Positions 772 to 60,060 of a stretch of 64,000 bases of DNA are shown one piece after another. The notes under the pieces are model-generated. The model saw only the letters and a program-made list of their open reading frames with translations. It was not told where the DNA came from and made no database searches. Within the stretch, counting starts at the first letter, position 1; each line of letters opens with the position of its first letter. Origin of the DNA: Ureibacillus manganicus DSM 26584 (GTDB lineage: Bacteria; Bacillota; Bacilli; Bacillales_A; Planococcaceae). The stretch is taken from NCBI RefSeq assembly GCF_000772945.1, contig NZ_JPVN01000014.1, positions 1 through 64,000 on the forward strand. The letters are read 5' to 3'. Made by a program: the position numbers and the translations under genes.

Positions 772-1025
772 TTTCGTGACAACTCGAAGTAATTTCGTCC
801 GACTACTGTCACGAAAAGCGTTCTTTCGTGACAACTCGGAGTGATTTCATGCCTCTACTGTCACGAAAACAGATCTTTCGTGACAACTCGGAGTGATTTC
901 ATGCCTCTACTGTCACGAAAAGCGTTCTTTCGTGACAACACAAAGCGATTTCGCACCTCTACTGTCACGAAACCCAATCTTTCGTGACAACTCCTTGTGG
1001 TTTCGTCCCTCAACTGTCCTCCAAG
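772..1025 (+). repeat. Array A: five 52-bp units of TTTCGTGACA-N25-TGTCACGAAA
   Basis: Units begin at 772, 824, 876, 928 and 980, exactly 52 bp apart. Each holds TTTCGTGACA, 25 bases, the reverse complement TGTCACGAAA, then 7 bases. Units 2 and 3 have identical 25-base spacers; the others differ. The last unit keeps only TGTC of its right arm. The array fills the gap between the CPBP gene and the sigma factor gene. Each unit could fold as a 10-bp stem with a 25-base loop. No protein-coding role is supported. It shares the GACA-N25-TGTC-N19 plan with the arrays at 4660, 28880 and 59625. Confidence 0.95.
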
Positions 1026-1109
1026 CAGTTTACTCCCAAAATAAAATAACTTTAGAGTATTTGAAACAAAATGAATTGCAGCACGACTTGTTAGTGAGGG
1101 GGGATGTTA

Positions 1110-1661
1110 GTGAGTAGCGGGTTAGATATAGAACGTTTATATACAGAATTTCATTTAGATATTTATCATTTTTCTTTATATTTTTCCAGTAACAAACAAG
1201 ATGCAGAAGATATTACACAAGAAACCTTTTTAAAAGCAATACGAAATATTCATATGCTGAAAGATCGTAATCGTGCAAAGTATTGGTTACTATCGATAGC
1301 AAGGAATACAGCAATCGATCATTTCCGAAAGAGGAAGCAAAAGTCATCATTACCTGAAATAATTGAAAAAACTACAAACGAAGATATGAAGAATTCCTTG
1401 GATGACTTTCTTTTAATAAAGGAACAGTGGGAGGAAATTCAACATGCTTTACTTAGAATTAAGCCTCATTATCGGAGTTTACTCATATTAAGGGGAATCC
1501 AAGAAATGACAATTAAAGAAACAGCCGAAATATTGGGTTGTTCTGAATTGAAGATACGAGTGGACTTTTATCGTGCAGTAAAGGTTTTGAAAAAGGAACT
1601 ACATGTATTGGAGGGAGTGAATAAAAATGGAAAATTCCAAAAATCTAACTCAAGAAGCTAA
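1110..1661 (+). CDS. RNA polymerase ECF-type sigma-70 factor
   Basis: The protein has the two expected domains: a region 2 with DAEDITQETFLKAI near residues 25-40 and a C-terminal region 4 helix-turn-helix (TIKETAEILGCSELKIRVDF). Its length of about 183 residues is usual for ECF factors. The GTG at 1110 is preferred because the ribosome site GAGGGGGG (1096-1103) abuts the in-frame ATG at 1104 but sits 6 bases before the GTG. The 3' end overlaps the next gene by 35 bases, the usual arrangement of a sigma factor and its membrane anti-sigma factor. It should direct RNA polymerase to a small envelope-stress regulon, probably including its own promoter. The regulon cannot be told from this sequence. 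Confidence 0.92.
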   Translation: MSSGLDIERLYTEFHLDIYHFSLYFSSNKQDAEDITQETFLKAIRNIHMLKDRNRAKYWLLSIARNTAIDHFRKRKQKSSLPEIIEKTTNEDMKNSLDDFLLIKEQWEEIQHALLRIKPHYRSLLILRGIQEMTIKETAEILGCSELKIRVDFYRAVKVLKKELHVLEGVNKNGKFQKSNSRS

Positions 1662-3087
1662 ACAGCTACTTCGTCCAATTAAAGATAGGCCAGACTTACA
1701 ACCATCGCCAGACTTTGTAAAAGAGTTATATCGTCAAATTATGCTAGAAAATACAAAAAAGAAACAAAAGGTGAAGAAATTATTTCCTTTGATTGTTGCA
1801 GTAGCGATTATTTTTATATTGCCAATAATAATTTTTTCCTATCAAATTGACGTAGAAACAACAAAAGGATTTTTAATTGAAGAATCCTCACGTATCCAAT
1901 TGGTGGACACTATCAATTATGGAAGTGAAGAAGGAGAAATTGGTTTAAGTGCTCATGGTATTAATCCAGTGAGTAGTTTTGATATTGAGCACGGAACATT
2001 ATATCTTTTAGATGAGGTTAATTCTCAGGTAGTTATTAGGAGTGTTGATGGTAATACAAGGTCATTTCCAATTCATAAAGACCAAACTATTATTGGTGGA
2101 CTTGAAGATATATTGGTTACAGAAGATGAAAATATATTTATTTTAAACTCTGTGGAGAAAATCGTTTATCAATATCATCCGGACGGAAAACTAGCAAAGA
2201 CATACGATTTAACGAAATTGGATTTATTTTTTCCAGACGCATTATATGAAGTAGCAAAAAATGAAATTATCGTTGGTCAAAATCAAAACAAGTTTGCTAA
2301 CCTCCAAACTATGAGTTTCATAGATGATAAAAATCTTCCTTTTCAAATTAGGAATATTAACCGTAAGGAAAGCTTATTAGTAATTAATGATAAAGAGAAA
2401 CAGATTGAAATTCCTATGATATCAGACTTAGGAATTGGGAATTTAGCGATCCTAGAGGAAATGGATGAACAAATAATTTATATGCAGACCGTTACACCTC
2501 CCGTAAATACTCCCATTTCAGAGACGCATATATATGGACTTAACAAACAAGGTTCTAAGCTGGGAGGTGTGCGTATTCCAGAGGAGAATTTTATAGAAAA
2601 ACCTCAGCGGCTAGAAAATTATATTAAAATAGATCAAAATAAAATCTATCTCGTAATTCCTGAAAACGAACATGTAGCCTTATATGAAATAACGTTAGGA
2701 AAACAGTATGAAAGCTTTATTGAGGAACAAGTGGAAAGAGTTAATGTTGGTTTTGATTATAAAACATTTGGAGAACCTTTTCCGGAATTGGAGATTGAAA
2801 TTAGAAATCTTCTAAAAGATGATAAAATCCAATATGGGAATGAAAACTCATTGAATGGAGCATCAATCAATAAAGATGGGACGGTAATTATTGATTTTAA
2901 GGATTTCTTAGCTGGAAGTCCAGCAAGCGCTGAAGCCCAATACTTTTTTAATGAACTTTATTCAGCAACCTTCGAGAAATTTCCAGAAATACAACAAATC
3001 TATTTCCAGTTCGACGGTAGCTTCAGTGCGTGGGTTCATTGGTTAGAAAGTATTGAAGAACCTTGGAAAAGGCTAGACTCACAATAA
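1627..3087 (+). CDS. Membrane-anchored anti-sigma factor-like protein with large extracytoplasmic domain
   Basis: The protein has about 50 cytoplasmic residues, one membrane helix at roughly 52-71, and over 400 residues outside the membrane. The outer part has beta-rich stretches reminiscent of a beta-propeller (residues 100-360), followed by a C-terminal part (about 390-486) that resembles the GerMN or sporulation-spore-germination type fold in its DFKDFLAGSP segment. That last comparison is weak. The overlap with the ECF sigma gene and the short cytoplasmic head fit an anti-sigma factor that senses an envelope signal. I see no clear zinc-binding HxxxCxxC motif in the head, so it would not be a classical ZAS protein. 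Confidence 0.7.
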   Translation: MENSKNLTQEAKQLLRPIKDRPDLQPSPDFVKELYRQIMLENTKKKQKVKKLFPLIVAVAIIFILPIIIFSYQIDVETTKGFLIEESSRIQLVDTINYGSEEGEIGLSAHGINPVSSFDIEHGTLYLLDEVNSQVVIRSVDGNTRSFPIHKDQTIIGGLEDILVTEDENIFILNSVEKIVYQYHPDGKLAKTYDLTKLDLFFPDALYEVAKNEIIVGQNQNKFANLQTMSFIDDKNLPFQIRNINRKESLLVINDKEKQIEIPMISDLGIGNLAILEEMDEQIIYMQTVTPPVNTPISETHIYGLNKQGSKLGGVRIPEENFIEKPQRLENYIKIDQNKIYLVIPENEHVALYEITLGKQYESFIEEQVERVNVGFDYKTFGEPFPELEIEIRNLLKDDKIQYGNENSLNGASINKDGTVIIDFKDFLAGSPASAEAQYFFNELYSATFEKFPEIQQIYFQFDGSFSAWVHWLESIEEPWKRLDSQ

Positions 3088-3159
3088 TATTAAGTGAGAA
3101 TTGAAACAGTGGGGGTTCATTCCCTACTAATTGTTAGTCTACAAAGTTCAAATTGAAAG

Positions 3160-3189
3160 TGGGTTGCTGCGGCAATCCATTTTTCTTTT
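3160..3189 (+). terminator. Intrinsic terminator of the sigma/anti-sigma operon
   Basis: An 8-bp stem TGGGTTGC/GCAATCCA with loop TGCG is followed by TTTTTCTTTT. It closes the operon 70 bases after the anti-sigma stop codon. Confidence 0.85.
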
Positions 3190-3266
3190 AAGCTAAAGAA
3201 TGAGATTGATACAAATAAAGGAAATGAATTTGAAAGAAAGAATATGTAGGGGGAGGGGGATTAGAG

Positions 3267-4178
3267 ATGAGTAAACAGTCTTTTATTGAATTTGAAAAGA
3301 AACTTAAAAGTATAAGAATTGAAGCATTCGTAATTTATAAGGGGGATACGCGGATCTTCGAATACTTAAAGAATAAGAAAGTCGTAGAAAAGCCTGCGAA
3401 GGTGTACTCCATAACAAAGAGCATTGTTTCATTGTTAATTGGAATTATTGTAGATAAAGGGTTAATCCAAACAATCCACGAACCCATCCAAAACTACTTT
3501 CCAGAAATTGTAGAGTCAAAAGATTCAAAGAAGAAGGAAATCACCATCTTTCATTTGCTGACCATGACTTCAGGATTACAAGTAGTGAATTTTCAAGGCT
3601 CAAAAAACTGGGTTAAATCCATACTCGAACAGCCTATGATCTATAAAGCCGGTTCAACCTTTCAGTACAATTCCGGAGACTATCATTTACTAAGTGCAAT
3701 CATACATAAAATAACTGGTGTACCTACAGCTTCATTTGCTGATAAATATCTATTCCAACCATTAGGGATCAATAAATACACATGGCTAACGGACCCGCAA
3801 GGAATTCATGGGGGTGGTTTTAGTATTTCGCTAACTTTAGAGGATATGGTGAAGATTGGACAGCTCTATTTAAATGAAGGTCGATACAATTCCAGGCAGT
3901 TGATTTCATCCAACTGGATTCTTCAATCCAAAAAACAAAATAAAGAAGTTGATACAACAGAAGAAGGAACCTATGGATATGGTTATCAGCTATGGACTTA
4001 TGAAAGTACGAACAAGAGCATGGAGTACTACTATGCAAATGGTCTATTTGGACAATATATATTTATAGTTCCTGAGTTAAATATAATGGCTGTGGCGAAA
4101 AGCCAACTACAAGAAGACCTGCAGTCTGCACCGAGAGTCTTTTTCGAAGAACTTTTAGGTAGTTGGCAGGGTGTGTGA
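3267..4178 (+). CDS. Serine hydrolase, beta-lactamase class C/esterase family
   Basis: The active-site SxxK motif is SITK at residues 48-51, with the nucleophile Ser48. The second motif is YNS at about 134 in FQYNSGDYHLL, typical of the class C-like hydrolase subfamily, and HGGGF near 178 suits the third motif. At 303 residues it is near the usual length. No signal peptide or membrane anchor is seen, so it is probably cytoplasmic. Members hydrolyse esters, D-amino-acid peptides or beta-lactams, and the substrate here is unknown. It has its own ribosome site, GGGGGAGGGGG, and stands alone after a terminator. Confidence 0.88.
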   Translation: MSKQSFIEFEKKLKSIRIEAFVIYKGDTRIFEYLKNKKVVEKPAKVYSITKSIVSLLIGIIVDKGLIQTIHEPIQNYFPEIVESKDSKKKEITIFHLLTMTSGLQVVNFQGSKNWVKSILEQPMIYKAGSTFQYNSGDYHLLSAIIHKITGVPTASFADKYLFQPLGINKYTWLTDPQGIHGGGFSISLTLEDMVKIGQLYLNEGRYNSRQLISSNWILQSKKQNKEVDTTEEGTYGYGYQLWTYESTNKSMEYYYANGLFGQYIFIVPELNIMAVAKSQLQEDLQSAPRVFFEELLGSWQGV

Positions 4179-4238
4179 GACATAAGTTGGTAAATAAGGC
4201 GAATTAGTTTAATAAAGTTTTTTTAAAGGAGCGAAGAA

Positions 4239-4640
4239 ATGGTCCTTACAAAACTGTTACTATTTTTAGCAATGTTCTTTTGTTTAAAGTTTTTATTAAA
4301 AAGGGCTCTTATTAAGATATTCAAGGTAGAAAAGGAGTCTTATCATAAGGAGTTCGTTCACAAGAAACATAAAATCATTAATGTCATTTTAGGAACATTC
4401 TTAATTCCTATTTTTATTCTCCTGTTATACTTTTTGCAAATAGGAGTTATTTCACAAATGTCAGTATTAGGTATCTTTCTTTTATCAGCAGCTGTACCTT
4501 GGGTGATAGAATCGTTCTTTTGGTGGAAGCAAGATCCTGACTCAAGATATTACGTAGTATGTATTGGAGAAGCAATATTCTTTGTTATTTTTGCAGTAAT
4601 TGTATGGCAGTTTGGGATCTTTGGACTTACAACAATTTAA
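4239..4640 (+). CDS. DUF4181-like small membrane protein
   Basis: This is a 133-residue protein with about four membrane helices and a charged cytoplasmic loop (KVEKESYHKEFVHKKHK) after the first helix. The HKKHK segment and the WWKQDPDSRYYVV segment before the last helix resemble DUF4181 proteins of Bacillus, whose function is unknown. A weaker relative lies at 56009 in this window. The ribosome site AAAGGAG lies 8 bases before the ATG. It is followed by a repeat array and not by a terminator. Confidence 0.65.
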   Translation: MVLTKLLLFLAMFFCLKFLLKRALIKIFKVEKESYHKEFVHKKHKIINVILGTFLIPIFILLLYFLQIGVISQMSVLGIFLLSAAVPWVIESFFWWKQDPDSRYYVVCIGEAIFFVIFAVIVWQFGIFGLTTI

Positions 4641-4659
4641 TTTGAAATGGCGTAAGTCC

Positions 4660-5015
4660 GCTTATTAAGACAGTAGAGCCACAAACGGAGCGGCTAATGT
4701 CCCAATAGACTGCTTATTAAGACAGTAGAGCCACAAACAGAGAGGCTATTGTCCCAATAGATTGCTTATTAAGACAGTAGAGCCATAAATAGAGCTTCTA
4801 GTGTCCAAAAACTCAGCTTATTAAGACAGTAGAGCGACAAACAAAGCGGCTAATGTCCCAATAGACTGCTTATTAAGACAGTAGAGCGACAAACAGAGCA
4901 GCTATTGTCCAAAAACTCAGCTTATTAAGACAGTAGAGCCTCAAACAGAGCGGCTAGTGTCCAAAAACTCGGCTTATTAAGACGGTAGAGTACAAACTAA
5001 ACGCCTAGTGTTCTG
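4660..5015 (+). repeat. Array B: seven 52-bp units of GCTTATTAAGACAG...TGTC
   Basis: Units start at 4660, 4712, 4764, 4816, 4868, 4920 and 4972, always exactly 52 bp apart. Each has TTATTAAGACAGTAGAG, then a variable middle containing GGCTA, then TGTCC and a short AT-rich linker. GACA and TGTC are 25 bases apart, and the next GACA follows after 19, exactly as in array A. The inner arms AGCC/GGCT can pair. Linkers alternate between two versions, CAATAGACT and AAAAACTC. The array is a head-to-tail family that keeps its spacing while drifting in sequence, and it separates a DUF4181 gene from a DinB gene. Confidence 0.95.
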
Positions 5016-5148
5016 CAGATTCACTTTTCATCATAACAGCTCCGATCAAATCCTATATTTGAGTAGAATCATTTTGTATAGTAGGTATGATTATAGAGAT
5101 ATATTTTCATAAAAATTGACGTATATAATTATGGGAAGGAGTAGTTGC

Positions 5149-5682
5149 ATGCATTTTAAAATGAATGAAGCTATTGAGTTGCTAGAACGTACACCCCAAA
5201 CGCTGGAGTATTTTTTATCTGGTTTATCGGAAGGATGGCTCCACTGTAATGAAGGCGAAGGAACTTGGAACGCCATTGAAGTAGTGGAACACCTTATTGA
5301 GGGAGAGAAAAATAATTGGATTCCAAGGTTAGAATTTATTCTTCAGGAAATTTCTAATAATCCATTCCCTCCCTTTGACCGGTTTTCACATTTGAAAAAT
5401 ATGTCTCAAACTTCAATTGATCAGAAGCTCCAGGAATTTAAAGCAATCCGAATGCAAAACATTAGTAAGCTTAAATCTTTGATTGAACCTGATCTACATC
5501 TCGAGTTAGAGGGTTCACACCCTGCATTTGGTACAGTTAAGGTAAGAGAGTTGCTTTCAACCTGGGTTGTCCATGATTTAACTCATATTTCTCAAATTGT
5601 ACGAGTAATGGCTGAGCGATACAGGGCAGATGTGGGTCCTTGGGAAGAATATTTAGGTATTTTGAAAGAGACTAAGCATTAA
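5149..5682 (+). CDS. DinB family protein
   Basis: This is a four-helix DinB_2-type protein of about 177 residues. The three histidines expected to bind a metal are visible: His48 in VVEHL and His142/His146 in HDLTHISQI. Family members include thiol-dependent transferases such as the BstA and bacillithiol transferase groups, but many have no known reaction. The ATG at 5149 is chosen because AAGGAG lies just upstream at 5139-5144; the earlier in-frame ATGs lack a site. It is monocistronic, and its 3' region runs into a large repeat array and then a terminator. Confidence 0.88.
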
Positions 5683-5734
5683 GAAAGAATTTGATTTTGA
5701 TAATCAGCAAGATGAAGATTTAGATAAAGAGAGA

Positions 5735-6259
5735 TTCTAATAATACCTTCACTTTTTCTAATAACGCCCTCAGATTTTCTAATAAGTAGCCCATTTTTTC
5801 TAATAACAGCAACTTGAGGACTGGAATTAAGGTGAACTTCTAATAACTACATCATTTTTTCTAATAACGCCCTCAGATTTTCTAATAAGTAGCCCAATTT
5901 TTCTAATAACAGCAACTTGAGGACTGAAATTAAGGTGAACTTCTAATAACTACATCATTTTTTCTAATAACACCCTCAGATTTTCTAATAAGTAGCCCAA
6001 TTTTTCTAATAACAGCAACTTGAGGACTGAAATTAAGGTGAACTTCTAATAACTACATCATTTTTTCTAATAACACCCTCAGATTTTCTAATAAGTAGCC
6101 CAATTTTTCTAATAACAGCAACTTGAGGACTGAAATTAAGGTGAACTTCTAATAACTACATCATTTTTTCTAATAACACCCTCAGATTTTCTAATAAGTA
6201 GCCCAATTTTTCTAATAACAGCAACTTGAGGACTAGAATTAACATGAACTTCTAATAAG
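5735..6259 (+). repeat. Array C: 103-bp tandem repeat of phased TTCTAATAA motifs
   Basis: TTCTAATAA recurs with the spacing 21, 21, 21 and 40 bp, making a 103-bp unit repeated about five times (GGTGAAC or its variant at 5831, 5934, 6037, 6140 and 6243). The 40-bp linker is nearly constant (CAGCAACTTGAGGACTG). Copies differ at only a few bases, so expansion is recent. The motif carries overlapping TAA stops and the array holds no reading frame. It lies between the DinB stop codon and a strong terminator, so it is probably transcribed as part of that gene's 3' untranslated region. Confidence 0.95.
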
Positions 6260-6260
6260 A

Positions 6261-6297
6261 GAACCTGACGAAGTGTGAATTTCGTCAGGTTCTTTTT
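6261..6297 (+). terminator. Strong intrinsic terminator after array C
   Basis: A perfect 12-bp stem GAACCTGACGAA/TTCGTCAGGTTC with an 8-base loop is followed by TTTTTCATTTT. It begins one base after the last repeat motif. Confidence 0.93.
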
Positions 6298-6419
6298 CAT
6301 TTTCTCACAAATGAAATTAAAGTAATACGTACGAAAATAAAAACTTTTTTATATTTTGTATAAGTTTACTTTACTTTTGTAAAAACTAAATTTATAATTT
6401 GATTCAAGAGGTGAGGATC

Positions 6420-6659
6420 ATGAAGAAAGATTTTGGTGATTCGATATCAAATAAGGTTTATGAATATCGTGTACTTGCCAGAATGTCTCAGCAAGAATTA
6501 GCAGAGAAAGTTGGGGTTTCTAAACAAACCATCTTTGTAATGGAAAAAGGAAACTATGTTCCGACTCTGTTGTTAGCTTTTCGTATTGCAGAATTTTTTA
6601 ATGTTGATGTAAACGAAATTTTTACTTATGTAAAAGGAGATGATGAAAATGGTAAATAA
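6420..6659 (+). CDS. Small XRE/Cro-type helix-turn-helix regulator
   Basis: This 79-residue protein is little more than one HTH_3 domain (MSQQELAEKVGVSKQTIFVMEKGNYVP, residues about 24-50). Regulators of this short type usually repress the operon they begin. GAGGTGAGG stands just before the ATG at 6420. The gene overlaps the following membrane-protein gene by 11 bases, so both are made from one message, and the regulator probably controls that pair. Confidence 0.92.
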   Translation: MKKDFGDSISNKVYEYRVLARMSQQELAEKVGVSKQTIFVMEKGNYVPTLLLAFRIAEFFNVDVNEIFTYVKGDDENGK

Positions 6660-6999
6660 ATTTTTCACAGATATCCAAAACGCTATTTTTCTTCCTTTAA
6701 AGTCGTGGGCTGAACAATCGCCTGGAAATTGGAATATTCTCATCGTTGCTGGTTTTTTACTACTTATGGGGAGTGCGATTTTAGCCTATGTAATGCATAA
6801 AATGATGGGGCAAAAAGACGAACGTACAAATATAATCTCTTTGAAAAGCGCTTACTGTGTGCTGGCGGTAGTAATCCTATGTGACATCATTTTTCCTAAA
6901 GAATATATGTGGAACATCTTTTTCTTGTTCAAATATGGTATCGCATTTTTAGCTGGAGGAATTTACTTGGCCGTACAATATAAAAAGGATTTTTCATAA
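6649..6999 (+). CDS. Small membrane protein cotranscribed with XRE regulator
   Basis: The protein of about 116 residues has an amphipathic start, a membrane helix at about 25-48, then two more near 67-85 and 89-107. I do not recognise a named domain, but an XRE regulator followed by a short multi-pass membrane protein is a common pair in Firmicutes. AAAGGAG at 6632-6638 favours the ATG at 6649 over the one at 6640. The overlap with the upstream stop suggests translational coupling. The candidate structured RNA starts directly after the stop codon. Confidence 0.75.
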   Translation: MVNKFFTDIQNAIFLPLKSWAEQSPGNWNILIVAGFLLLMGSAILAYVMHKMMGQKDERTNIISLKSAYCVLAVVILCDIIFPKEYMWNIFFLFKYGIAFLAGGIYLAVQYKKDFS

Positions 7000-7005
7000 G
7001 TAATG

Positions 7006-7165
7006 CCGAGGGGCATGGCTGAGAGAAGGATGGTGGTTAGACGGCTAATCTCCAGTGGATAATCAATAACAAGTTTTGATTGAGGATTTGTTCAGGAAGT
7101 ACTAACCAAATATAGTCATGCCAAATCCGCACTCTCCTCAACAATATTCTGGAAGCAGCCCTACG
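7006..7165 (+). ncRNA. Candidate structured RNA or leader element upstream of the Pr6Pr gene
   Basis: Long-range pairing is strong. GGCATGGCT (7012-7020) pairs over 9 bp with AGTCATGCC (7114-7122), closing a domain of about 110 bases. Inside it, TGGTTAG (7034-7040) can pair either with CTAATC (7045-7050) or with CTAACCA (7102-7108), and AATCAA (7061-7066) pairs with TTGATT (7076-7081). GGATTTG (7084-7090) pairs with CAAATCC (7122-7128), competing for base 7122. Such mutually exclusive helices are typical of riboswitches or attenuators. CTGAGAG and GGATAAT recall the TPP riboswitch, but the rest of that consensus is missing. I cannot assign a family. Confidence 0.45.
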
Positions 7166-20018: not shown

Positions 20019-20191
20019 TTCTAATATTTGCTTCTTTTTTCTAATAAGTCCCTGATTATTTCTAATAACCCATCTATATTATCTAATAACGACTGTAGAG
20101 TAGCTAAATTTCCGAACAAATTCTAATAATCCCTTTGTTTTTTCTAATAAGTCAGTAATTTTTCTAATAACTCATAATAATATTCTAATAT
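20019..20191. repeat. Array D: phased TTCTAATAA motifs
   Basis: TTCTAATA-like motifs start at 20019, 20039, 20060, 20081, 20121, 20142, 20162 and 20183, giving spacings of 20, 21, 21, 40, 21, 20 and 21 bp. This is the same 21/21/21/40 plan as arrays C and H with different sequence between the motifs. On the minus strand, the sense of the flanking genes, it lies between the L,D-transpeptidase stop codon and a terminator, so it is probably transcribed there in the opposite sense to array C. Confidence 0.9.
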
Positions 20192-28861: not shown

Positions 28862-28879
28862 TTTATTAAGGGGGCTGGC

Positions 28880-29700
28880 TTCTCAAGGACAGAAAAAGTG
28901 AATTTTCTCTAAAAGTTGTTCTTGAGACTGCTTCGCGAGGACAGAAAAAGTGATTTATTCGGAAAATTGTCTTCGAAACCGCTTCTCAAGGACAAAAAGA
29001 GTAATTTTTTCGGAAAATTGTCTTCGAAACCGCTTCTCAAGGACAAAAAATGTCTTCGAGAACGCTTCTCGAGGACAGAAAAAGTGATTTATTCGAAAAG
29101 TTGTCCTTGAGGCCGCCTCTCGAGGACAGAAAAAGTGATTTATTCGAAAAGTTGTCCTCGAGACCGCTTCTCGAGGACAAAAAGAGTGATTTTTTCGAAA
29201 AGTTGTCTTCGAGACCGCTTTTCGAGGACAGAAAGAGTGATTTATTCGGAAAATTGTCTTCGAAACCGCTTCTCAAGGACAAAAAGAGTAATTTTTTCGG
29301 AAAATTGTCTTCGAAACCGCTTCTCAAGGACAAAAAATGTCTTCGAGAACGCTTCTCGAGGACAGAAAAAGTGATTTATTCGGAAAATTGTCTTCGAAAC
29401 CGCTTCTCGAGGACAAAAAGAGTGATTTTTTCGAAAAGTTGTCTTCGAGACCGCTTTTCGAGGACAGAAAGAGTGATTTATTCGGAAAATTGTCCTTGAG
29501 ACCGCTTCTCGAAGACAGAAAAAGTGATTTATTCGGAAAATTGTCTTCGAAACTGCCTCTCGAGGACAAAAAGAGTAATTTTTTCGAAAAATTGTACTCG
29601 AGGCCACCTCTCGAAGACAGAAAGAGTGATTTATTCGGAAGATTGTCTTTGAAACATCTTCTCGTGGAAAAAAAGAGTAGTTTTATCGAAAAACTGTTCT
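28880..29700. repeat. Array E: seventeen 51-bp units of GAGGACA...TGTCCTCGAG
   Basis: GGACA cores start at or near 28885, 28937, 28988, 29039, 29071, 29122, 29173, 29224, 29275, 29326, 29358, 29409, 29460, 29511, 29562, 29613 and 29664. The period is 51 bp except for one 52 and two 32. Each unit holds CTCGAGGACA, 24 bases, TGTCCTCGAG and 19 bases, so GACA and TGTC keep the plan of arrays A, B and G. The segment from about 28937 to 29100 recurs 287 bp later, a sign of recent unequal exchange. The array lies after the regulator's terminator and before the exporter promoter. Confidence 0.95.
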
Positions 29701-52151: not shown

Positions 52152-52353
52152 ATAATAGACAATCCAGCCGGGATAATAGACAAAAGAGGGCAGATAATAG
52201 ACACACTTAGAAAGCAGAGCGGATATTAGACACTCAAGTCAGCATAATAGACCAAAGAGGGCAAATAATAGACAAACGGAGCTGGATAATAGACACACGT
52301 AGAAAGCAGAGCAGATAATAGACATACGCAGAAAGCTCAGGAGATAATAGAAT
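52152..52353. repeat. Array F: ATAATAGACA at 21- or 29-bp steps
   Basis: ATAATAGACA or a close variant starts at 52152, 52173, 52194, 52223, 52244, 52265, 52286, 52315 and 52344, with spacings of 21, 21, 29, 21, 21, 21, 29 and 29 bp. A TTCTAATAA motif at 52132 lies just before it. The sequence between the motifs is variable but often contains GCAGAGC or CAGAAAGC. The GACA core is that of arrays A, B, E and G, and the 21-bp step is that of arrays C, D and H, so this array looks intermediate between the two plans. Confidence 0.85.
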
Positions 52354-52462
52354 TTTTCATTTGTAACTATATTATCCTCGGGGGATAATATAGTACATTC
52401 CTATTTTATTTCCTACAGCTTCTATAGTTAATGGCTACCTGCAGTAGAGGCCCGCAACTAAA

Positions 52463-52843
52463 TTCTAATAACACCCTGATTTTTTCTAATATGTACCTGA
52501 GATTTTCTAATAACTCACTGAAACTTTCTAATAACTCCTCTGCAGAACCCAGGCGCTCGACTAAATTCTAATAACACCCTGATTTTTTCTAATAAGTGCC
52601 TCAGATTTTCTAATAACTCACTGAAACTTTCTAATAACTCTTCTGCAGAACTCAAGCGCACGACTAAATTCTAATAATACCCTGATTTTTTCTAATATGT
52701 ACCTGAGATTTTCTAATAACTCACTGAAACTTTCTAATAACTCCTCTGAAGAACGCAAGCGGTCGACTAAATTCTAATAACACCCAGAATTTTTCTAATA
52801 AGTACCTCAGATTTTCTAATAACTCATAGGAAATTTCTAATAT
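52463..52843. repeat. Array H: 103-bp tandem repeat of phased TTCTAATAA motifs
   Basis: TTCTAATAA starts at 52463, 52484, 52505, 52526 and then 52566, so the 21/21/21/40 plan of array C repeats, here close to four times. The 40-bp linker holds CTCTGCAGAACCC and CGACTAAA, unlike the linker of array C, while the motifs and steps are the same. It lies beside array F in one gap between two co-directional GNAT genes. Confidence 0.93.
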
Positions 52844-53614: not shown

Positions 53615-53620
53615 CTTTAA

Positions 53621-53701: not shown

Positions 53702-54289
53702 CTAACGGATCACAAACACTTTCCTAAACACAGGAAAAATAATATACCCAAGAAAAACCCCTAAAACATTTAAAATTAAATCATCAATATCCAAACTTCC
53801 TCGTCTTGTCAAAAACTGTACGAATTCAATCAAACTAATTGATCCTATAGAAATCAAAATCAGCTGCATCATAGAAGGTGCATTTTTAACATATCGATAA
53901 TACAACCCAAAAGGAATAAATAAACCGATATTTGCCCCCAAATTATAAAGTGCAATCAAAAAACTAACACTGTCAGTTAAATAATAAGAAATCGTCTCTA
54001 ACGGAATTAAATTCACAGATCCATTATTAGCACCACCTGGCCTAAAATATAATAAAATAAGCAAAACTAGCGCATATAAAAAAATTAATCTATTGAGACT
54101 CCGCTTTGATATTCGAACTTCCTCTTTACGAATCCAACTAACCCCAAACAAAAATACAAAAAGGATCAGAACCCAAACGACTACAATAACAATTGAATGT
54201 AGATATTTAGTCAACTCAATCCAAACAGGGAAAAAGATGAAAAAGACAATTTGAGAAAATAAAATACTTAATTTCATGCTTTTGTTCAT
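53702..54289 (-). CDS. VanZ family membrane protein
   Basis: The 195-residue protein has five membrane helices. The family marks are visible: FRPGGANNGSVNLIPLETIS (near residue 82), NIGLFIPFGLYYRY (near 118) and FVQFLTRRGSLDIDDLILN followed by VLGVFLGYIIFP (near 157). VanZ-like proteins are common in Firmicutes, and the original member gives low teicoplanin resistance; most have no tested role. Its start is the ATG at 54289, with no strong ribosome site directly before it. Confidence 0.92.
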   Translation of the reverse strand: MNKSMKLSILFSQIVFFIFFPVWIELTKYLHSIVIVVVWVLILFVFLFGVSWIRKEEVRISKRSLNRLIFLYALVLLILLYFRPGGANNGSVNLIPLETISYYLTDSVSFLIALYNLGANIGLFIPFGLYYRYVKNAPSMMQLILISIGSISLIEFVQFLTRRGSLDIDDLILNVLGVFLGYIIFPVFRKVFVIR

Positions 54290-54397
54290 TCACATAATCC
54301 GCCATTTCTAATTGTTCATGAGCAAATTATAACAGTTAAAGGGATTATTAGTCTCATAGAGAATTACTTAGTGAGTATAAAGGATTGGGGGGCTAAG

Positions 54398-54766
54398 ATG
54401 AACAGAAGATATTTGTTTCTACTCATAGCATTACTATCAACAGTCATTCTCGTAAGCTGCTCAAATGAGCCCGAAAGAGAAGAAGTGATCGAAGCTCGAG
54501 ATGATCAGTATGGAGAAATTCGATCCGTAGCATGGGATTTTATTCAACAAAATGATTGGCATACTAGGGCAGATGAAAATTGGGAAAGTGCAAAAGTAGA
54601 GAAAATACTAGCTGATGATCGCTATGAAATATTAGATCCTACGGTTGAAGGCAAAGAGGTATTCAGTGTTTCTTTTAAAGATATAGAAAATGTTGTAGTC
54701 GGTACACCTCAAATCCTTGTTGATCCAAAAACAAAAAAAGTAGTTGGTTATATGTTAGGTGAATAA
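54398..54766 (+). CDS. Small lipoprotein of unknown function
   Basis: A signal peptide ends STVILVSC with the lipidated Cys21, and the mature protein of about 100 residues is acidic. The second half (ESAKVEKILADDRYEI, VVGTPQILVDPKTKKVVGYM) resembles a PepSY- or cystatin-like fold, but this is a guess from the pattern. GGGGGGCT precedes the ATG at 54398, which sets the start. Confidence 0.75.
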   Translation: MNRRYLFLLIALLSTVILVSCSNEPEREEVIEARDDQYGEIRSVAWDFIQQNDWHTRADENWESAKVEKILADDRYEILDPTVEGKEVFSVSFKDIENVVVGTPQILVDPKTKKVVGYMLGE

Positions 54767-54796
54767 AAAATCGTCAAAGGGCAGGTGGGGTATAGT

Positions 54797-54835
54797 AAAT
54801 AAAAAGGGAAATCCTCCTTCACGGAAGATTCCCCT
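54797..54835 (-). terminator. Terminator of the ctaB gene
   Basis: AGGGGAATCTTCC pairs with GGAGGATTTCCCT on the minus strand, followed by TTTTTATTTAC. The stop codon of the heme O synthase gene lies in the 5' arm. Confidence 0.9.
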
Positions 54836-55775
54836 AATTGAAAATTGGTGAAGTTAATAAAATCATTACTAACGATAGTAAAACTAAATAGATTAATGAA
54901 TAGCGTAGATTCGCCTGTGCCCATTTTTTCACATCTATAGCTCGTGAACCTTTTGCAGCAAGGATAATCCAGCCAATTGTTAAGACAATAGCAACAAAAA
55001 AGAATATCCAACCTAAAGAAGTAATCAATAAAAACGGAAATGGCAGCAAAGTGATTATATAAATTAAGTTTTGACGAATCGTAACATCCACACCGTAAAC
55101 GACTGGCAACATTGGAACACCAGCTCTTGTGTAATCTTCCAATCTTTTAATTGCCACGGCAAATGTGTGTGGGACTTGCCAAATGAATAAGATACAAAAC
55201 ATCACGATGGGCACGATATGATTTGCAGGTGCAATCACTGCCCAGCCAATTAAAGGTGTAAATGCCCCCGAAACACTACCTACAACTGTGTTCAATGTAT
55301 ACCTACGCTTTGACCAAAATGTATAAAGAACAACATAGATAAACCAACCTAAAAAGGAATAAAGGGTAGCTTCAATTGTTGTAAATAACATCATGACAAG
55401 TCCAATTATTGTTGTAATAATCCCTGACCATAAAACAGCTTTCAAGGCGAAATGCCCGTTCACTGTTGGTCTATTTTGAGTGCGGACCATTTTTTTATCT
55501 AAATCGACTTCATACCAATTATTGAGCATTAACGCCCCAGAAATAACGAGCGTACTCCCAAGCATAGTTAATAGAAACGTACCCCAATAATCGACAAATC
55601 GTTCCCCATGAAAATAAAGCGCTAACCAATAAGCTGTGAAAACAGGCAGTACATTGGCAACTAACACTTTTCCTTTTAATAAGAATTTAATATCTATTAA
55701 AAAGCGAAGAAGTTTAGAAGAACTCTGAGCTGTTGTGTCTAAAGCCGAATCAGCTAGCAATTGTCCATTTTCCAT
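54834..55775 (-). CDS. ctaB: Heme O synthase (protoheme IX farnesyltransferase)
   Basis: The 313-residue membrane prenyltransferase has about nine helices. The first prenyl-binding motif is NNWYEVDLDKKMVRTQNRPT, where relatives have NDxxDxxxD, and the second is YTRAGVPMLPVVYG after KRLEDY. It adds a farnesyl group to heme B to make heme O for cytochrome oxidase. No other cta gene is nearby, so it stands alone, possibly as a second copy. The start is the ATG at 55775 after TAGGAGAT. Confidence 0.93.
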   Translation of the reverse strand: MENGQLLADSALDTTAQSSSKLLRFLIDIKFLLKGKVLVANVLPVFTAYWLALYFHGERFVDYWGTFLLTMLGSTLVISGALMLNNWYEVDLDKKMVRTQNRPTVNGHFALKAVLWSGIITTIIGLVMMLFTTIEATLYSFLGWFIYVVLYTFWSKRRYTLNTVVGSVSGAFTPLIGWAVIAPANHIVPIVMFCILFIWQVPHTFAVAIKRLEDYTRAGVPMLPVVYGVDVTIRQNLIYIITLLPFPFLLITSLGWIFFFVAIVLTIGWIILAAKGSRAIDVKKWAQANLRYSLIYLVLLSLVMILLTSPIFN

Positions 55776-56008
55776 AAATATCTCCTACTTTTATCGTATT
55801 TGAAGTGAGATTGCAATAACATTATTATATCATGAGAGGTTTGTCCTATCTGTGTATATTATTCGAAATGATCTTCCGATAAACGTTCAATTAAATAAAA
55901 ATAGAGTAGCTTTCAAATACTAAAGCTCATTTTGCTTTTATATAGAAGGATTAACCAATTCTCATATTGAAGTAATTACAGTAGAACCTTGTGAAAGGGG
56001 GATACATA

Positions 56009-56353
56009 GTGGGGATTTCAGCACCATTATTAGTGTTTGTTGTCGGTATTGCCAATCTCATCGTTGGTCATTTTCTAATTGAGGGTAAAAGAAAGAAAAT
56101 TTCTGAAACGAAAGGGAAATATATACATAAGTGGGGATACTCAATAATTGCGACAATGGGAATAGGTAGTCTTTTTATTTTAGACATTTTTGATCCGAAT
56201 GTGATGAAGTGGTTTTGGTTAGGTTTATTAATTCTAATTATAGGTTTTCAAACACTTTTGGATTGGAAATATCTTAAAGGAACTAAGGAATATCTTGTTT
56301 CATTAATCGTACTAGTCATTGGAATAATCTATATTTTAGTAGTTATGTTTTAA
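56009..56353 (+). CDS. DUF4181-like small membrane protein
   Basis: The protein of about 114 residues has four membrane helices with an early charged loop (EGKRKKISETKGKYIHKWGY). The late segment NVMKWFWLGLLILIIGFQTL with DWKYLKGTKEYLVSLI resembles DUF4181 more clearly than its relative at 4239. The function is unknown. AAAGGGGG (55994-56001) lies 7 bases before the GTG at 56009, so the earlier GTG at 55991 is not used. Confidence 0.72.
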   Translation: MGISAPLLVFVVGIANLIVGHFLIEGKRKKISETKGKYIHKWGYSIIATMGIGSLFILDIFDPNVMKWFWLGLLILIIGFQTLLDWKYLKGTKEYLVSLIVLVIGIIYILVVMF

Positions 56354-56378
56354 ATGGTGGGGATAAAGGAGGGGCAAG

Positions 56379-56639
56379 TTGAGAAGCAGAGGTGAAGATG
56401 AAAAATTTGATTTATTAACAATCATACAAATTTGCATCATGATCTGTATTCTAATTGTCAGTTCATATTTATTAATGACAAGGAACTTTGAATTAGAGAG
56501 ATTGATAAGGTCGATATTGCTTATTGTGTTAAGTGTAACTTTAGCTTTCCAAAAATATAAAGCTAAAAGGATAGGGTGGTGTATCTTCTTTAGTTTTCTT
56601 TCTATCTGCTTCTTATTCTCAATACTTTTAAGATTATGA
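56379..56639 (+). CDS. Small membrane protein of unknown function
   Basis: The 86-residue protein has three membrane helices (about 13-30, 42-57, 64-83) after a charged start (SRGEDEKFD). No family is recognised. TTG at 56379 follows AGGAGGGGC. It lies 25 bases after the DUF4181-like gene, so both are likely in one operon. Confidence 0.68.
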   Translation: MRSRGEDEKFDLLTIIQICIMICILIVSSYLLMTRNFELERLIRSILLIVLSVTLAFQKYKAKRIGWCIFFSFLSICFLFSILLRL

Positions 56640-56668
56640 AAAGCCTAAGCTAAAATATTAGGCTTTTT
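56640..56668. terminator. Bidirectional terminator between convergent genes
   Basis: AAGCCTAA pairs with TTAGGCTT around GCTAAAATA, followed by TTTATT on the plus strand and by TTTTC on the minus. It can end the 56379 gene and the MFS gene. Confidence 0.85.
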
Positions 56669-56680
56669 ATTGATTCGCTA

Positions 56681-57940
56681 TTACTTATTGACTAATGGTC
56701 TAGACGGTTGTTTTTTAATAACAATGACAAACAGACTCGCTAGCACACAGAATACTCCTGCCATGAAAAACGCCCAAGTATACGTATTAAAATATTGATA
56801 AACCAACCCTCCACCATAAGCCGCTACAGCAGCACCAGCCTGGTGAGATGCATAAATCCATCCATAAATAATGGCACTTTTATGAAGACCAAAGATTTGT
56901 CTTGAAATATTGATGGTTGGGGGAACAGTAGCCACCCAATCTAACCCATAAAACACGGAAAACACTATGATCCAAGTAATATTTCCTTCCATTAGTGCAA
57001 AAGGTAGTAGTACGAGGGAACCGCCTCTAAACAAGTAATACCAAAATAAAAGCCAACGATTATCAATACGGTCCGAAAGCCATCCTGATAATGTTGTACC
57101 AACCATGTTAAAGACGCCCATAAATGAAAGCAGGGATGCCGCAGTAACAAGTGGAATTCCAAAGCTAATACAAAAAGAAATAAAATGAGTCCCAATTAGT
57201 CCACTCGTTGAAAATCCACAAATAAAGAAACTCCCTGCAAGTAGCCAAAACTCTTTTGACTTTAGAGCATCAGCCAACCCCTTGAATGCAACGATGATGG
57301 GATTTCCTTTTTGAGATTGAGAGATTTCCTCACTTTCCTCCATTTGACCGTATGGAAGAATTCCAATCTCTTTTGGTGAGTTTTTGATAAATAATAAGAT
57401 AATGAAGAACATAATAATGCTAAGACCTATAATTAACCCCATTGCCCAACGCCAAGAATAACCTTCAATCACCATCGCTAAGACAGGCAGTAAGATTAGC
57501 TGGCCCATCGCCGTGCTCGCCGTTAAGATTCCTGTTGCGAGTCCTCGTTTTTCTTTAAACCAATGATTCGCAACGTATGGACTTAATACTGTTAAGAAAA
57601 GACTAGATCCAAGTCCAATAATAATTCCCCAAATGATAATGAGGTGCCAAGATTGGTGCATCAAGTATGTTAATAGAAGCCCAGTCATCAAGGTAGCCAT
57701 TGATGCAAGCATCATTTTCTTTAGCCCTAATTTTTCTAATAAGGCCGCCATGAACGGACCAGCCAATCCAAAGAAAAACAAGCAAATCCCAAAGGCTACG
57801 GAAATCTCTGGCCGTTGCCAGCCAAATTCCTTTTCAAAAGGAGTTAAAAAGACTCCAGACGATGCCACCACGATTCCCGCTACAATGATGGAGAAAAATG
57901 TAACAATCAGTATAAACCAGCTATAGTGAATTTGTTTCAA
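56681..57940 (-). CDS. MFS transporter (OFA/oxalate-formate antiporter-like)
   Basis: The 419-residue protein has 12 helices. The start SWFILIVTFFSIIVAGIVVA and SSGVFLTPFEKEFGW is typical of the OFA/MCT-like family, and motif A-like LSDRIDNRWLL lies in the central loop. PYVANHWFKEKRGLATGILT is the usual helix 4 motif. Such carriers move small carboxylates or export toxic compounds. It is divergent from the MarR gene, and an MhqR-type palindrome lies between them, so the same regulator may control it. Confidence 0.92.
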   Translation of the reverse strand: MKQIHYSWFILIVTFFSIIVAGIVVASSGVFLTPFEKEFGWQRPEISVAFGICLFFFGLAGPFMAALLEKLGLKKMMLASMATLMTGLLLTYLMHQSWHLIIIWGIIIGLGSSLFLTVLSPYVANHWFKEKRGLATGILTASTAMGQLILLPVLAMVIEGYSWRWAMGLIIGLSIIMFFIILLFIKNSPKEIGILPYGQMEESEEISQSQKGNPIIVAFKGLADALKSKEFWLLAGSFFICGFSTSGLIGTHFISFCISFGIPLVTAASLLSFMGVFNMVGTTLSGWLSDRIDNRWLLFWYYLFRGGSLVLLPFALMEGNITWIIVFSVFYGLDWVATVPPTINISRQIFGLHKSAIIYGWIYASHQAGAAVAAYGGGLVYQYFNTYTWAFFMAGVFCVLASLFVIVIKKQPSRPLVNK

Positions 57941-58088
57941 GACAAACCTTCTCTCTCTATCTATGATTCTTAATTGTAACTAGTTGTGTGGTAGGTGTAA
58001 AATTGAATTTCTGATTACGGAACTCTGCTTAATGCTTTCGGGGATTAATACCTTCAATAAAGCATGATATGAATGAGTTTCACAAATT

Positions 58089-58106
58089 TATTTCGAATTC
58101 GAGATA
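58089..58106. promoter_or_regulatory. MhqR-type operator in the divergent promoter region
   Basis: TATTTCGAATTCGAGATA is an 18-bp palindrome with one mismatch and matches the known MhqR box TATCTCGAATTCGAGATA at all positions but one. It lies 62 bases before the MarR start at 58168 and about 150 bases before the MFS start on the other strand. It predicts autoregulation in response to quinones. Confidence 0.85.
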
Positions 58107-58167
58107 TTTTCCTTGCGTTTCTTTCACTTGAGATGTAAAGTGATAGTAACGAAAGGAAGTGAGCATA

Positions 58168-58605
58168 TTGAGAAGAAATACACTAGGAACACTTATTTGG
58201 TTACGTATTGCTCGTTTTACACATCAAAGTAATTTGTTATCGAATGATTTCTTAAAACCGTTTGGAATTACAGCTGCACAGTTTGATGTATTAAATCAGA
58301 TTGCAACTTATCAGCCAATTAAGCAAAGTGAGCTTGCTGTGAAAGCAACCTTATCGGAAGGTGGAATTTCACGAATGCTCACTCGCCTCGAACAAGATGG
58401 GTATATACAACGTAAGCAGGAATGGAAGACGAAATGGATTTCATTGACTTCAAGCGGGGAGGCAAAAATGCAGGAAGTCTTTCAACACCAGCTTACTTTC
58501 CAAACGACCATGGTTGATGAATGTTTGACAGAGGAAGAACAGAAAACACTTTATAAGCTCATGACGAAATTACAAAAGAATACGGAAAATAAATTGGGAT
58601 GCTAG
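58168..58605 (+). CDS. mhqR: MarR family regulator, MhqR-like
   Basis: The 145-residue protein has a winged-helix core: [20 protein letters not shown] and [20 protein letters not shown] (recognition helix) followed by the wing [15 protein letters not shown]. It resembles MhqR of Bacillus, a repressor of quinone and catechol resistance genes. Support comes from the MhqR box upstream and the two ring-cleaving dioxygenase genes downstream. TTG at 58168 is 10 bases after AAGGA, while the frame's GTG at 58159 is too close. No redox cysteine is obvious near the N terminus. Confidence 0.82.
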
Positions 58606-58664
58606 AAATCCTATTTATTTTTAACCAATCACTTGACTAGTAAACTGAAAAAGGAGAGCTAACT

Positions 58665-59612
58665 ATGTATAAAATTCCAGGACATCATCACATTTCAATG
58701 ATCACCAAAAATGCTAGTGAAAATAACCATTTTTATCGAAAAATACTTGGGTTGCGCCGAGCGAAAGTAACCGTTAACCAAGATGATCCTTCTATGTATC
58801 ATCTATTCTTCGGAGATCGAACTGGGAGCCCAGGTACAGAACTTTCTTTCTTTGAAATTCCGATGGTTGGAAGAACGCATCGTGGCACGAATGCCATTAC
58901 AAGAATCGGGTTACTTGTCCCAACTGTAGATAGTTTACTGTATTGGCAACAACGCTTGGAGGATTTTGGTGTCCAAACTAGCCATTTTACGAAATTCGCT
59001 AATCATACATCGATTCTTTTTGAAGATCCAGAAGGGTTACGTTTGGCTCTGATTGTTTCAAATGGGGCGAAGGTGGAACACTGGGAAACTTGGGAAAAAT
59101 CAGAAGTCCCTGAAGAACATCAAATTCAAGGAATGGGTGCTGTGGAAATAACGGTAAGAAGACTTGATAAGCTAGCAAACACATTGACAGAGATTTTTGG
59201 CTACGTAGAAGTCAGCCGTACTGAGGAAGAAGCAATTTTCCAATCAGTTGAGGGCGAGCTTTTTGGAGAAATCGTCGTGAAGTATTTAGATGGTGAATCT
59301 GAAAGACCTGGGCGAGGAAGTATTCATCATTTAGCAATCCGAGTAAAAAATGATGAAGAACTAGAATACTGGGATCAACAAGTTCGTGCTCGTGGCTTCC
59401 ATTCATCAGGTATTGTGGATCGATTCTACTTCAAGAGCTTATACTTCCGCGAATCAAATGGCATTCTTTTTGAAATCGCAACGGATGGCCCAGGCTTCAC
59501 TGCTGATGGAGATAATATCGAAACACTAGGTGAAAAATTAGTTTTACCACCATTTTTAGAAAACCGCCGTGCGGAAATTGAAGCAATTTTAAAGCCGATT
59601 GAGGAATATTAA
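58665..59612 (+). CDS. Ring-cleaving dioxygenase (MhqO/MhqA-like, VOC fold)
   Basis: The 315-residue protein has two VOC modules. GHHHISMITKNASENNHFYR and KILGLR open the first, and MGAVEITVRRLDKLANTLTE opens the second, with IHHLAIRVKN and SNGILFEIATDGPGFT near the C terminus providing the metal-binding His and Glu of the extradiol-type site. Such enzymes open hydroquinone or catechol rings during quinone stress. It starts 60 bases after the MarR gene, with AAAGGAGAGC before the ATG, and is probably cotranscribed with it. Confidence 0.92.
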   Translation: MYKIPGHHHISMITKNASENNHFYRKILGLRRAKVTVNQDDPSMYHLFFGDRTGSPGTELSFFEIPMVGRTHRGTNAITRIGLLVPTVDSLLYWQQRLEDFGVQTSHFTKFANHTSILFEDPEGLRLALIVSNGAKVEHWETWEKSEVPEEHQIQGMGAVEITVRRLDKLANTLTEIFGYVEVSRTEEEAIFQSVEGELFGEIVVKYLDGESERPGRGSIHHLAIRVKNDEELEYWDQQVRARGFHSSGIVDRFYFKSLYFRESNGILFEIATDGPGFTADGDNIETLGEKLVLPPFLENRRAEIEAILKPIEEY

Positions 59613-59624
59613 TAAAATCAATTT

Positions 59625-60060
59625 TATTGGACAAAAGAGGCGGAAAAAGCGGTTGACCTGTCTAATAAAAGGGCTCTAATGGACAAATGCAGCGGAAAAG
59701 TGATCGAGTTGTCCAATAACCGGACTTTATTGGACAACAGAGGCGTAAAAAGCGAGTGAGTTGTCCAATAACTAGGCTTTATTGGACAGAAGAAGCAGAA
59801 AAAGCGAGTGAGTTGTCCAATAACTAGGCTTTATTGGACAGAAGAAGCAGAAAAAGCGAGTGAGTTGTCCAATAACCAGGCTTTATTGGACAACAGAGGC
59901 GTAAAAAGTGAGTGAGTTGTCCAATAACCAGGTTTTATTGGACAGAAGAAGCAGAAAAAGTGAGTGAGTTGTCCAATAACCAGACTTTATTGGACAACAG
60001 AGGCGTAAAAAGCTAGTGAGCTGTCCAATAGACGAGCACCAGTGGACAAAACAAGTCGAA
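59625..60060. repeat. Array G: nine 52-bp units of TTATTGGACA-N25-TGTCCAATAA
   Basis: GGACA cores start at 59629, 59681, 59732, 59784, 59836, 59888, 59940, 59992 and 60044, so the step is 52 bp (one 51). Each unit holds TTATTGGACA, 25 bases with AGAGGCGTAAAAAG or AGAAGCAGAAAAAG, then TGTCCAATAA and a linker with CNGGCTT. Left and right arms are exact reverse complements in most units, giving a 10-bp stem. It lies between the two dioxygenase genes. Two spacer types alternate in the middle of the array. Confidence 0.95.

Follow-up and report, generated by a model that had tools for sequence, protein, structure and literature searches.

The 64,000-nucleotide stretch of Ureibacillus manganicus DSM 26584 analysed here (the window; positions 1 to 64,000 of contig NZ_JPVN01000014.1, in our numbering C7:1-64000, from a genome of 4.05 Mb in 81 contigs) contains eight intergenic repeat arrays. 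Arrays of the same two layouts lie beside genes for proteins with a NERD domain (PF08378), and the clade of the protein matches the layout of the array: inverted units of 51/52 bp accompany clade I, and direct sites about 21 bp apart accompany clade D. We suggest that the arrays are probably helically phased rows of half-sites for NERD proteins, two subfamilies of which would read two geometries. A first-pass annotation of the window had described the arrays and two spacing rules, and had proposed selection on geometry, either by a protein binding on one helix face or by a fixed RNA fold. The link with NERD genes was absent from that reading and is new here. Since clade predicts layout, we infer that the two rules are the footprints of two NERD protein subfamilies. 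Below, C, G, L and f denote contigs of this genome, other genomes, loci and families, respectively.

The link was first seen from the array side. Clustering of 525 open reading frames (ORFs) around 161 arrays gave several recurrent families, and a NERD protein of about 302 aa was encoded with its stop codon facing the array at five loci of this genome (L159, L162, L166, L168, and L235). The protein combines a PD-(D/E)XK nuclease-related domain with a zinc ribbon of four cysteines and a winged-helix-like C-terminus, and the best AlphaFold2 model of an array-linked NERD protein has a predicted local distance difference test score (pLDDT) of 89. All seven array-linked proteins scanned are above the curated cut-off of PF08378, which covers the domain only; the zinc ribbon, the winged-helix-like end, and the array linkage are described here. 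The original description of NERD is reportedly that of Grynberg and Godzik in 2004. The predicted active-site D and K columns are conserved in 24/24 clade I and 36/36 clade D proteins, and the cysteines in 24/24 and 35/36.

The first set comprised 79 NERD ORFs from 16 genomes, and an array was sought within 300 bp behind the stop codon. An array was found behind 52 of the 79. By genome, with the ORFs taken out of all NERD matches given first and the ORFs with an array behind given second, the counts are: this genome 11/12, 10/11; G234 8/9, 5/8; G255 5/6, 5/5; G248 6/7, 3/6; G256 9/9, 5/9; G250 4/4, 2/4; G253 3/4, 2/3; G254 3/4, 2/3; G247 2/2, 1/2; G242 2/3, 0/2; G243 1/1, 0/1; G239 3/7, 3/3; G235 2/8, 2/2; G493 11/11, 5/11; G604 6/6, 4/6; and G572 3/9, 3/3, where the choice of the roughly 300-aa kind in G239, G235, and G572 biases these three toward array-linked genes. 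With the same settings, only 16 of 292 ORFs in C1:1-320000 of this genome have an array behind, and 23 have one on either side; among the other ORFs in the NERD stretches, 34 of 256 have an array behind. NERD genes are present in all 25 congeners, 1 to 12 in each, and the present genome has ten that are array-linked. A genome may carry up to ten clade I/D paralogues, usually each with an array of its own motif beside the gene. Dispersed arrays also lie between other genes, rarely divergent ones.

A tree was built from the 76 NERD proteins that are between 200 and 420 aa long, which excluded three of the 79 ORFs; it falls into three parts, with 24 proteins in clade I, 36 in clade D, and 16 others; the FastTree support is 0.86 for the clade I split and 0.76 for the clade D split. 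Members of clade I occur in the genus of the window and in three other families (f33, G493; f41, G604; f57, G572). A 51/52-bp array, mostly inverted, lies behind all 24 clade I genes. Among the 36 clade D genes, a direct array lies behind 28 (27 by the period from Tandem Repeats Finder (TRF), together with L372, with steps of 21,21,21,21,18) and in front of 4, and none was found by TRF for 4. No array lies behind any of the 19 other NERD ORFs (16 in the tree and 3 outside it by length). If only arrays of at least 100 bp are counted, the values are 24/24 for clade I, 20/36 for clade D, and 0/19 for the others, with a base rate of 11/292. Inverted arms beyond chance (reached in at most 10 of 100 shuffles) are present in 20/24 consensus units of clade I, compared with 1/22 of those tested for clade D. 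The NERD clades with no array behind the gene, of about 220-290 aa and 333-345 aa types, are found in the same genomes.

Because the array labels were visible when the clades were defined, a held-out set was assigned by scores of hidden Markov models (HMMs) with hand-set cut-offs. It contained 60 NERD loci unexamined before the clades were drawn, 59 of them with an HMM hit; when 19 repeats of the first set were dropped, 40 new genes were left. The ten clade I genes have an array behind in six cases and in front in one, and three are bare; the 13 clade D genes have five behind and six in front, and two are bare. For the 17 other NERD genes there is none behind and one in front, with a 36-bp period. 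All seven held-out clade I arrays have periods of 51, 52, or 104 bp, and all eleven clade D arrays have periods of 20, 21, 42, or 102/21. The 51/52-bp period is therefore seen with every clade I gene that has an array (24 in the first set and 7 held out) and with no clade D gene. The bare clade I genes show array-like sequence by eye at L331, at a contig end, and at L404, in front, and at most a trace in front at L341; of the other bare genes, L333 is array-like by eye and L407 has none. In both sets together, the array is behind in 30/34 clade I, 33/49 clade D, and 0/36 other NERD genes, and on either side in 31/34 clade I and 43/49 clade D genes, compared with 23/292 ordinary ORFs. The gene-array link holds in the held-out set, less absolutely than in the first, and this outcome left our confidence in the proposal as it was. 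The Fisher test, made on the first-set table, and the binomial tests give p values that take no account of common descent. The clade D array is often in front of the gene in G350, G572, and G580 (L391, L397, L400, L402, L405, L408, and others).

In the window, all eight arrays were present where the first-pass annotation had placed them, as seen by TRF and in the printed sequence, with a summed length of about 3.1 kb:

Array A, 772..1018, strand (.): inverted half-sites TTTCGTGACA / TGTCACGAAA in 52-bp units, a clade-I-type layout.
Array B, 4660..5011, strand (.): inverted half-sites TTATTAAGACA / TGTCCCAATA in 52-bp units, a clade-I-type layout.
Array C, 5735..6258, strand +: direct sites TTCTAATAA with steps of 21,21,21,40 (103 bp), a clade-D-type layout.
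Array D, 20019..20190, strand +: degenerate direct TTCTAATAA sites (TCTAAT) with steps of 20,21,21,40,21,20,21.
Array E, 28878..29697, strand (.): inverted half-sites CTCGAGGACA / TGTCCTCGAG in 51-bp units, some of them shortened.
Array F, 52152..52356, strand +: direct sites ATAATAGACA (TAnTAGA) with steps of 21,21,29,21,21,21,29,29.
Array H, 52457..52842, strand +: direct sites TTCTAATAA/TTCTAAT with steps of 21,21,21,40 (103 bp).
Array G, 59623..60060, strand (.): inverted half-sites TTATTGGACA / TGTCCAATAA in 51/52-bp units.

The pattern GACA-N24/25-TGTC has 31 matches in the window, compared with 1.25 expected from dinucleotide shuffles and a maximum of 5 in 100 shuffles, and TTCTAATAA has 44, compared with 2.55 expected. 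The proposed rule GACA-N24/25-TGTC-N19 at 51/52 bp recurs elsewhere in the genome. GACA itself is not universal, however: some 52-bp arrays of this genome have GACC/GGTC as their core. The series 21,21,21,40 claimed for arrays C, D, and H is exact in C, five times over, and is found in H, but D departs from it; array F can now be seen to follow a 21/29 direct rule. A common origin of the array motifs, as the annotation suggested, is plausible.

In the window itself, we found no NERD gene of clade I or D; its arrays were compared by blastn with 56 NERD-adjacent arrays. Array G resembles the array behind a NERD gene of its own genome (C20:30470-31363; 221 bp, E = 4.3e-13), and it has more similar stretches in this genome and an orthologous array in G234. 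Array E has its matches behind NERD genes of G255 (E = 1.7e-21), of G248 (5.8e-21), and, in another family, of G604 (E = 7.6e-7), and none among the NERD arrays of its own genome. Arrays D (33 bp, E = 2.7e-4), F (50 bp, E = 2.7e-5), and H (57 bp, E = 5.2e-5) all resemble the array behind the NERD gene L372 of G256. There was no match for arrays A, B, and C. The longest word that A has in common with any NERD-adjacent array is 10 bp (G234, L354), and array B and the array behind the NERD gene on C62 have in common only the repeated 9-mer AGACAGTAG. Elsewhere in the genome, the array behind the NERD gene on C72 (GGTCTTCAT) has repeated 15-mers in common with the distant arrays L239, L245a, and L248a, that of C11:163747 has an 11-mer in common with L247b, and that of C4 has TCTATGAGACA in common with L231 and L238; no null was computed for shared words. 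Array G sits between two genes (58665-59612 and 60119-61096 of the window) with similar starts (MxxxxGxHHxT), an arrangement suggestive of a tandem duplication in which the array separates the two copies.

In the direct arrays, the step length is kept while the spacer bases vary freely. Runs of 21-bp steps are interrupted by steps of 19 bp, for example 21,21,21,21,19 in L285, and the super-periods include 4x21+19 = 103, 4x21+29 = 113, and 4x21+18 = 102. The series 21,21,21,40 of array C also adds up to 103 bp, its fifth site being unoccupied, and this series is also found beside the clade D NERD genes L349, L359, L411, and L419. Other rules beside NERD genes are 21x4+29 (L348, L356, and L360; compare the 21/29 steps of array F), 21x4+18 (L372 and parts of L358), 20/21 (L377), plain 21 (L413 and L443), plain 20 (L444), and irregular steps (L365 and L370). 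The helical repeat that best fits 3,980 pair distances is 10.28 bp, for which no null was computed; plain 21-bp rows drift slowly out of phase. Among the 25 congeners, TTGTCC at 21-bp steps has 50 matches in G244, 37 in G248, 25 in G255, and 10 in G256, with a control of 0 throughout.

The inverted arrays are similarly regular. Measured over 751 units from 142 arrays, the inner distance is 25 in 592, 24 in 142, 26 in 15, and 23 in 2, and the outer distance is 19 in 597 of 609. The N19 segment is a palindrome of two 6-bp arms around a 7-bp loop. In 96 non-redundant arrays with at least three units, its positions 1-6 pair with 19-14 in 64 to 83%, compared with 27 to 44% when shuffled; all four pair types occur at five of the six positions, and the arms covary between arrays with z of 7 to 12. 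Recognition of both half-sites by a single protein would lead to such covariation. Within the inner N25, pairing is clearly raised at the outermost pair alone. At the ends of 81 arrays, the 6-bp arm past GACA/TGTC is still conserved (0.78 to 0.93), and then identity falls. In 48 arrays, deviation from the array consensus affects 4.2% of the cells in the arms, compared with 13.4% in the loop and 12.4% in the inner middle, a count in which the conservation of GACA cannot be judged as it is fixed by the search itself. This anatomy suits two inverted protein half-sites better than an RNA hairpin.

The arrays could instead be RNA elements, rows of hairpins in 3' untranslated regions acting as terminators, stabilisers, or sponges, with the NERD genes merely carrying one. 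Indeed, the 106 arrays that could be placed (a further 36 are at locus edges and 19 overlap a mechanical ORF) lie mostly between codirectional (64) or convergent (33) genes and rarely between divergent ones (9), and N19 can fold into a stem of 10 bp that carries a loop of 7 nt. However, the gene strand shows roughly as many G.T as A.C mispairs, 19 and 21 in consensus pairs and 94 and 81 in units, so that there is no G.U excess, and Rfam gives no match in the window at the gathering threshold; known structured RNAs were rejected as candidates on these two counts. Furthermore, direct arrays have no stem beyond chance (1/22) and occur in both orientations relative to genes (13 arrays), and the prediction of layout by NERD clade would be unexplained. 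We consider RNA elements very unlikely. Of the two branches of the annotation's selection on geometry, that of a DNA-binding protein on one helix face is favoured and that of a fixed RNA fold is not. The protein branch is favoured by the 21-bp spacing with freely varying spacers, by the steps of 18, 19, 29, and 40 that restore approximately whole turns, by half-sites less variable than spacers, and by a linked protein family whose clade predicts layout.

We propose that the NERD protein binds the half-sites of its own array, either dimerised or lined up in a row along a single face of the DNA. For clade I, the sites would be inverted half-sites, with 10-bp arms around 7 bp, recurring every 51/52 bp, or about five helical turns. 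For clade D, they would be direct sites every 21 bp or so, and the correction steps would return the row to whole turns (103 bp, about ten turns). Such binding would explain the phasing, the symmetry, and the match of clade and layout. Neutral satellites that lack a cognate protein and arise from replication slippage and palindrome correction would be consistent with the evident tandem homogenisation and the fast turnover of motifs. However, neither the 103-bp rule with its unoccupied fifth site nor the low variation of half-sites, the gene linkage, and the clade-layout match would be expected of them, and we regard this explanation as extremely improbable.

Several results weigh against binding by NERD proteins as the basis of the arrays. 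Within arrays, 0 of 123 deviations are compensated, compared with 2.4 expected by chance (2,007 cells), and across N25, 3 are matched, compared with 2.3 expected; both are weak tests. Families other than NERD, of several kinds, also recur beside arrays at four or more loci. The correlation of motif similarity with protein identity is weak (r of 0.22 and 0.19, reached by 3 and 1 of 500 permutations, respectively, with some arrays too short to score), and the proteins of L411 and L419 are 81% identical while their motifs have almost nothing in common (cosine 0.02). No NERD-adjacent array matches A, B, or C, although this genome has ten linked genes, and D, E, F, and H match those of other species only; either lost partners or rapid drift of motifs would account for this. 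Among the 28 arrays located behind clade D genes, eight are shorter than 100 bp, the shortest being 42 to 60 bp (L364, L347, L416, and L427). Of the four clade D genes without a TRF array, L442 and L367 have degenerate arrays by eye and L436 and L366 have none. Four clade I units lack inverted arms beyond chance, and the held-out linkage of clade I, 6/10 behind, is weaker than in the first set.

What the NERD proteins would do at their sites can be stated with less confidence. With a conserved active site, a gene-adjacent array, and dispersed copies, the system resembles RAYT and REP, for which nicking or cutting at the sites has been proposed to drive expansion and copying, and the same might occur here. 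The whole could then be a nuclease-driven satellite system of Bacilli, in which each clade I or D NERD protein has a private motif, nicking or cutting of its own array and repair of the breaks build, homogenise, and seed arrays, specificity and motif drift together, several distinct protein-array pairs coexist in a genome, and orphan arrays are left by lost partners; we place this full scheme a little below an even chance. For nuclease-driven upkeep or spread of the arrays as such, too, our estimate lies somewhat under one half, and the main rival is anchoring or regulation. In that rival, the NERD protein is a DNA-binding regulator or chromosome organiser, the arrays are anchoring or titration sites, and the nuclease fold does not spread them. 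The winged-helix-like C-terminus and the phased sites would suit this role, as would the secA-prfB locus, which keeps arrays in several species while motif and layout change. Furthermore, a protein of clade I and another of clade D had no tblastn match (E up to 1e-5) among 72,556 records of plasmids and 50,697 of phages, and on this search a plasmid or phage element was rejected as a candidate. On the other hand, almost no variation is seen in the predicted active-site residues, few arrays lie between divergent genes, and no single target gene is prominent, the recurrent neighbours being of several kinds. A role in regulation or organisation alone seems to us less likely than not, though likelier than the other alternatives.

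A further proposal is that the NERD protein and its array form an anti-phage or self/non-self system, with the array holding or restraining the nuclease. NERD domains also occur in defence proteins, and there are weak domain-level hits to PglW, MADS6, MkoA, and PDC-M16A. These hits span the NERD domain only, however, and are far below the curated cut-offs (the best has 31.6 bits, compared with 990). A defence role seems unlikely. In PADLOC, the known anti-phage systems gave only partial NERD-domain hits, the best with E of 1.2e-7 to positions 36-114 of the 1403 of PglW, and membership of the NERD proteins in such a system was rejected.

The nearest known system is RAYT/REP. PMC2817692 describes a chromosomal gene for a DNA-processing protein with repeats on its flanks, many dispersed extragenic copies, more than one family per genome, and coevolution of protein and repeat, and also the BIMEs, with regularly spaced repeats in alternating orientation. 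A repeat beside the gene of a DNA-processing type of protein, together with dispersed copies, is found here as well, with NERD in the place of RAYT and a putative processing role. However, the protein is a PD-(D/E)XK NERD protein and not a Y1 transposase, and the sites form helically phased tandem rows, with a second, purely direct layout and no GTAG-type tag. Membership in RAYT/REP was rejected on two counts. There is no GTAG-like tetranucleotide by a 20-40 bp palindrome: the core is GACA/TGTC, GACC/GGTC, or others, and the direct arrays have no palindrome. In addition, the Y1 RAYT family PF01797 has no match in the array-rich genomes of U. manganicus, G241, G248, and G255; it matches in 14 of the 25 congeners, without tracking the arrays.

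CRISPR arrays likewise have palindromic repeats at regular spacing, but the spacers here repeat with the unit, the window has no Rfam match of any kind, and the linked gene encodes a NERD protein; this candidate was also rejected. Short direct intergenic repeats are known in TAACTGA, which occurs in many intergenic regions of Beggiatoaceae, Cyanobacteria, and Bacteroidetes, with its binding protein given as unknown, and in a Beggiatoaceae genome is mostly found a short way upstream of start codons, two to six copies together (PMC4679880). It differs in being one fixed heptamer, and the abstract of that paper reports neither a private motif per locus nor a linked gene. Among the papers listed in searches of the open-access literature, none joins NERD proteins to tandem repeats. 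Since no description was found there and the arrays do not belong to RAYT/REP, CRISPR, Rfam, or known defence families, we call the system new in kind, with RAYT/REP as a functional analogue. If the proposal is correct, bacteria have one more type of repeat that is tied to a gene, served by an enzyme with no relation to the CRISPR and REP/RAYT enzymes. NERD proteins that lack a role in the literature found would gain a concrete substrate, dozens of natural protein-motif pairs would be at hand for studying change of DNA specificity, and much intergenic repeat DNA would be explained.

The arrays recur well beyond the window, in the same genome, in congeners, and in other families, so the outcome that was to refute the annotation, spacing rules confined to the window, did not arise. 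In this genome, GACA-N24/25-TGTC-N18-20-GACA has 344 matches on one strand and 325 on the other, and TTCTAATAA-N12-TTCTAATAA has 78; the reversed-pattern control is 0 for both. In C1:1-320000, ten arrays occupy 4,267 bp, although the nature of one (L230:2923) is doubtful. Across 261 genomes of the family, only the genus of the window has counts that clearly exceed the reversed-pattern control, and there the GACA rule is patchy, from 539 down to 0 over 25 species. In an even sample of the class (398 genomes), 12 have a match and nine have at least four, with a single control match in one genome; these nine fall in six families (f1, f27, f33, f41, f57, and f58). A two-unit pattern was found in at least 116 stretches of named genomes. 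Among the 80 matches listed, nearly all are from Bacillaceae in the wide sense (Neobacillus, Mesobacillus, Cytobacillus, Robertmurraya, Litchfieldia, Evansella, Oceanobacillus, Gracilibacillus, Ureibacillus, and others), and a few bear the odd names Sedimentibacter, Balneolales, Chryseobacterium, and Paenibacillus. Arrays of the Bacillaceae type are on contigs named Chryseobacterium sp. ISL-80 and Paenibacillus sp. BSR1-1 (L081, L096, and L135), and these records may be misnamed.

The gap between secA and prfB (L259-L282, upstream of prfB) shows the turnover of motif and layout. It holds 51-bp inverted arrays in this genome and in G234, direct arrays in G244 and G256, and rows that are degenerate by eye in G240 and G248; the G256 array changes from GTGC to GTCC sites partway. 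A change within one array is also seen at L245 (17536-18074), where the arms pass from CTTGAG/CTCAAG to CAGTAA/TTACTA and the 51-bp register is kept. The sites TGTGCGGATAG and TGTGTGGATAG of L277, upstream of prfB in G256, are near TGTGGATAA, which we take to be the DnaA box, and the likeness may be due to chance.

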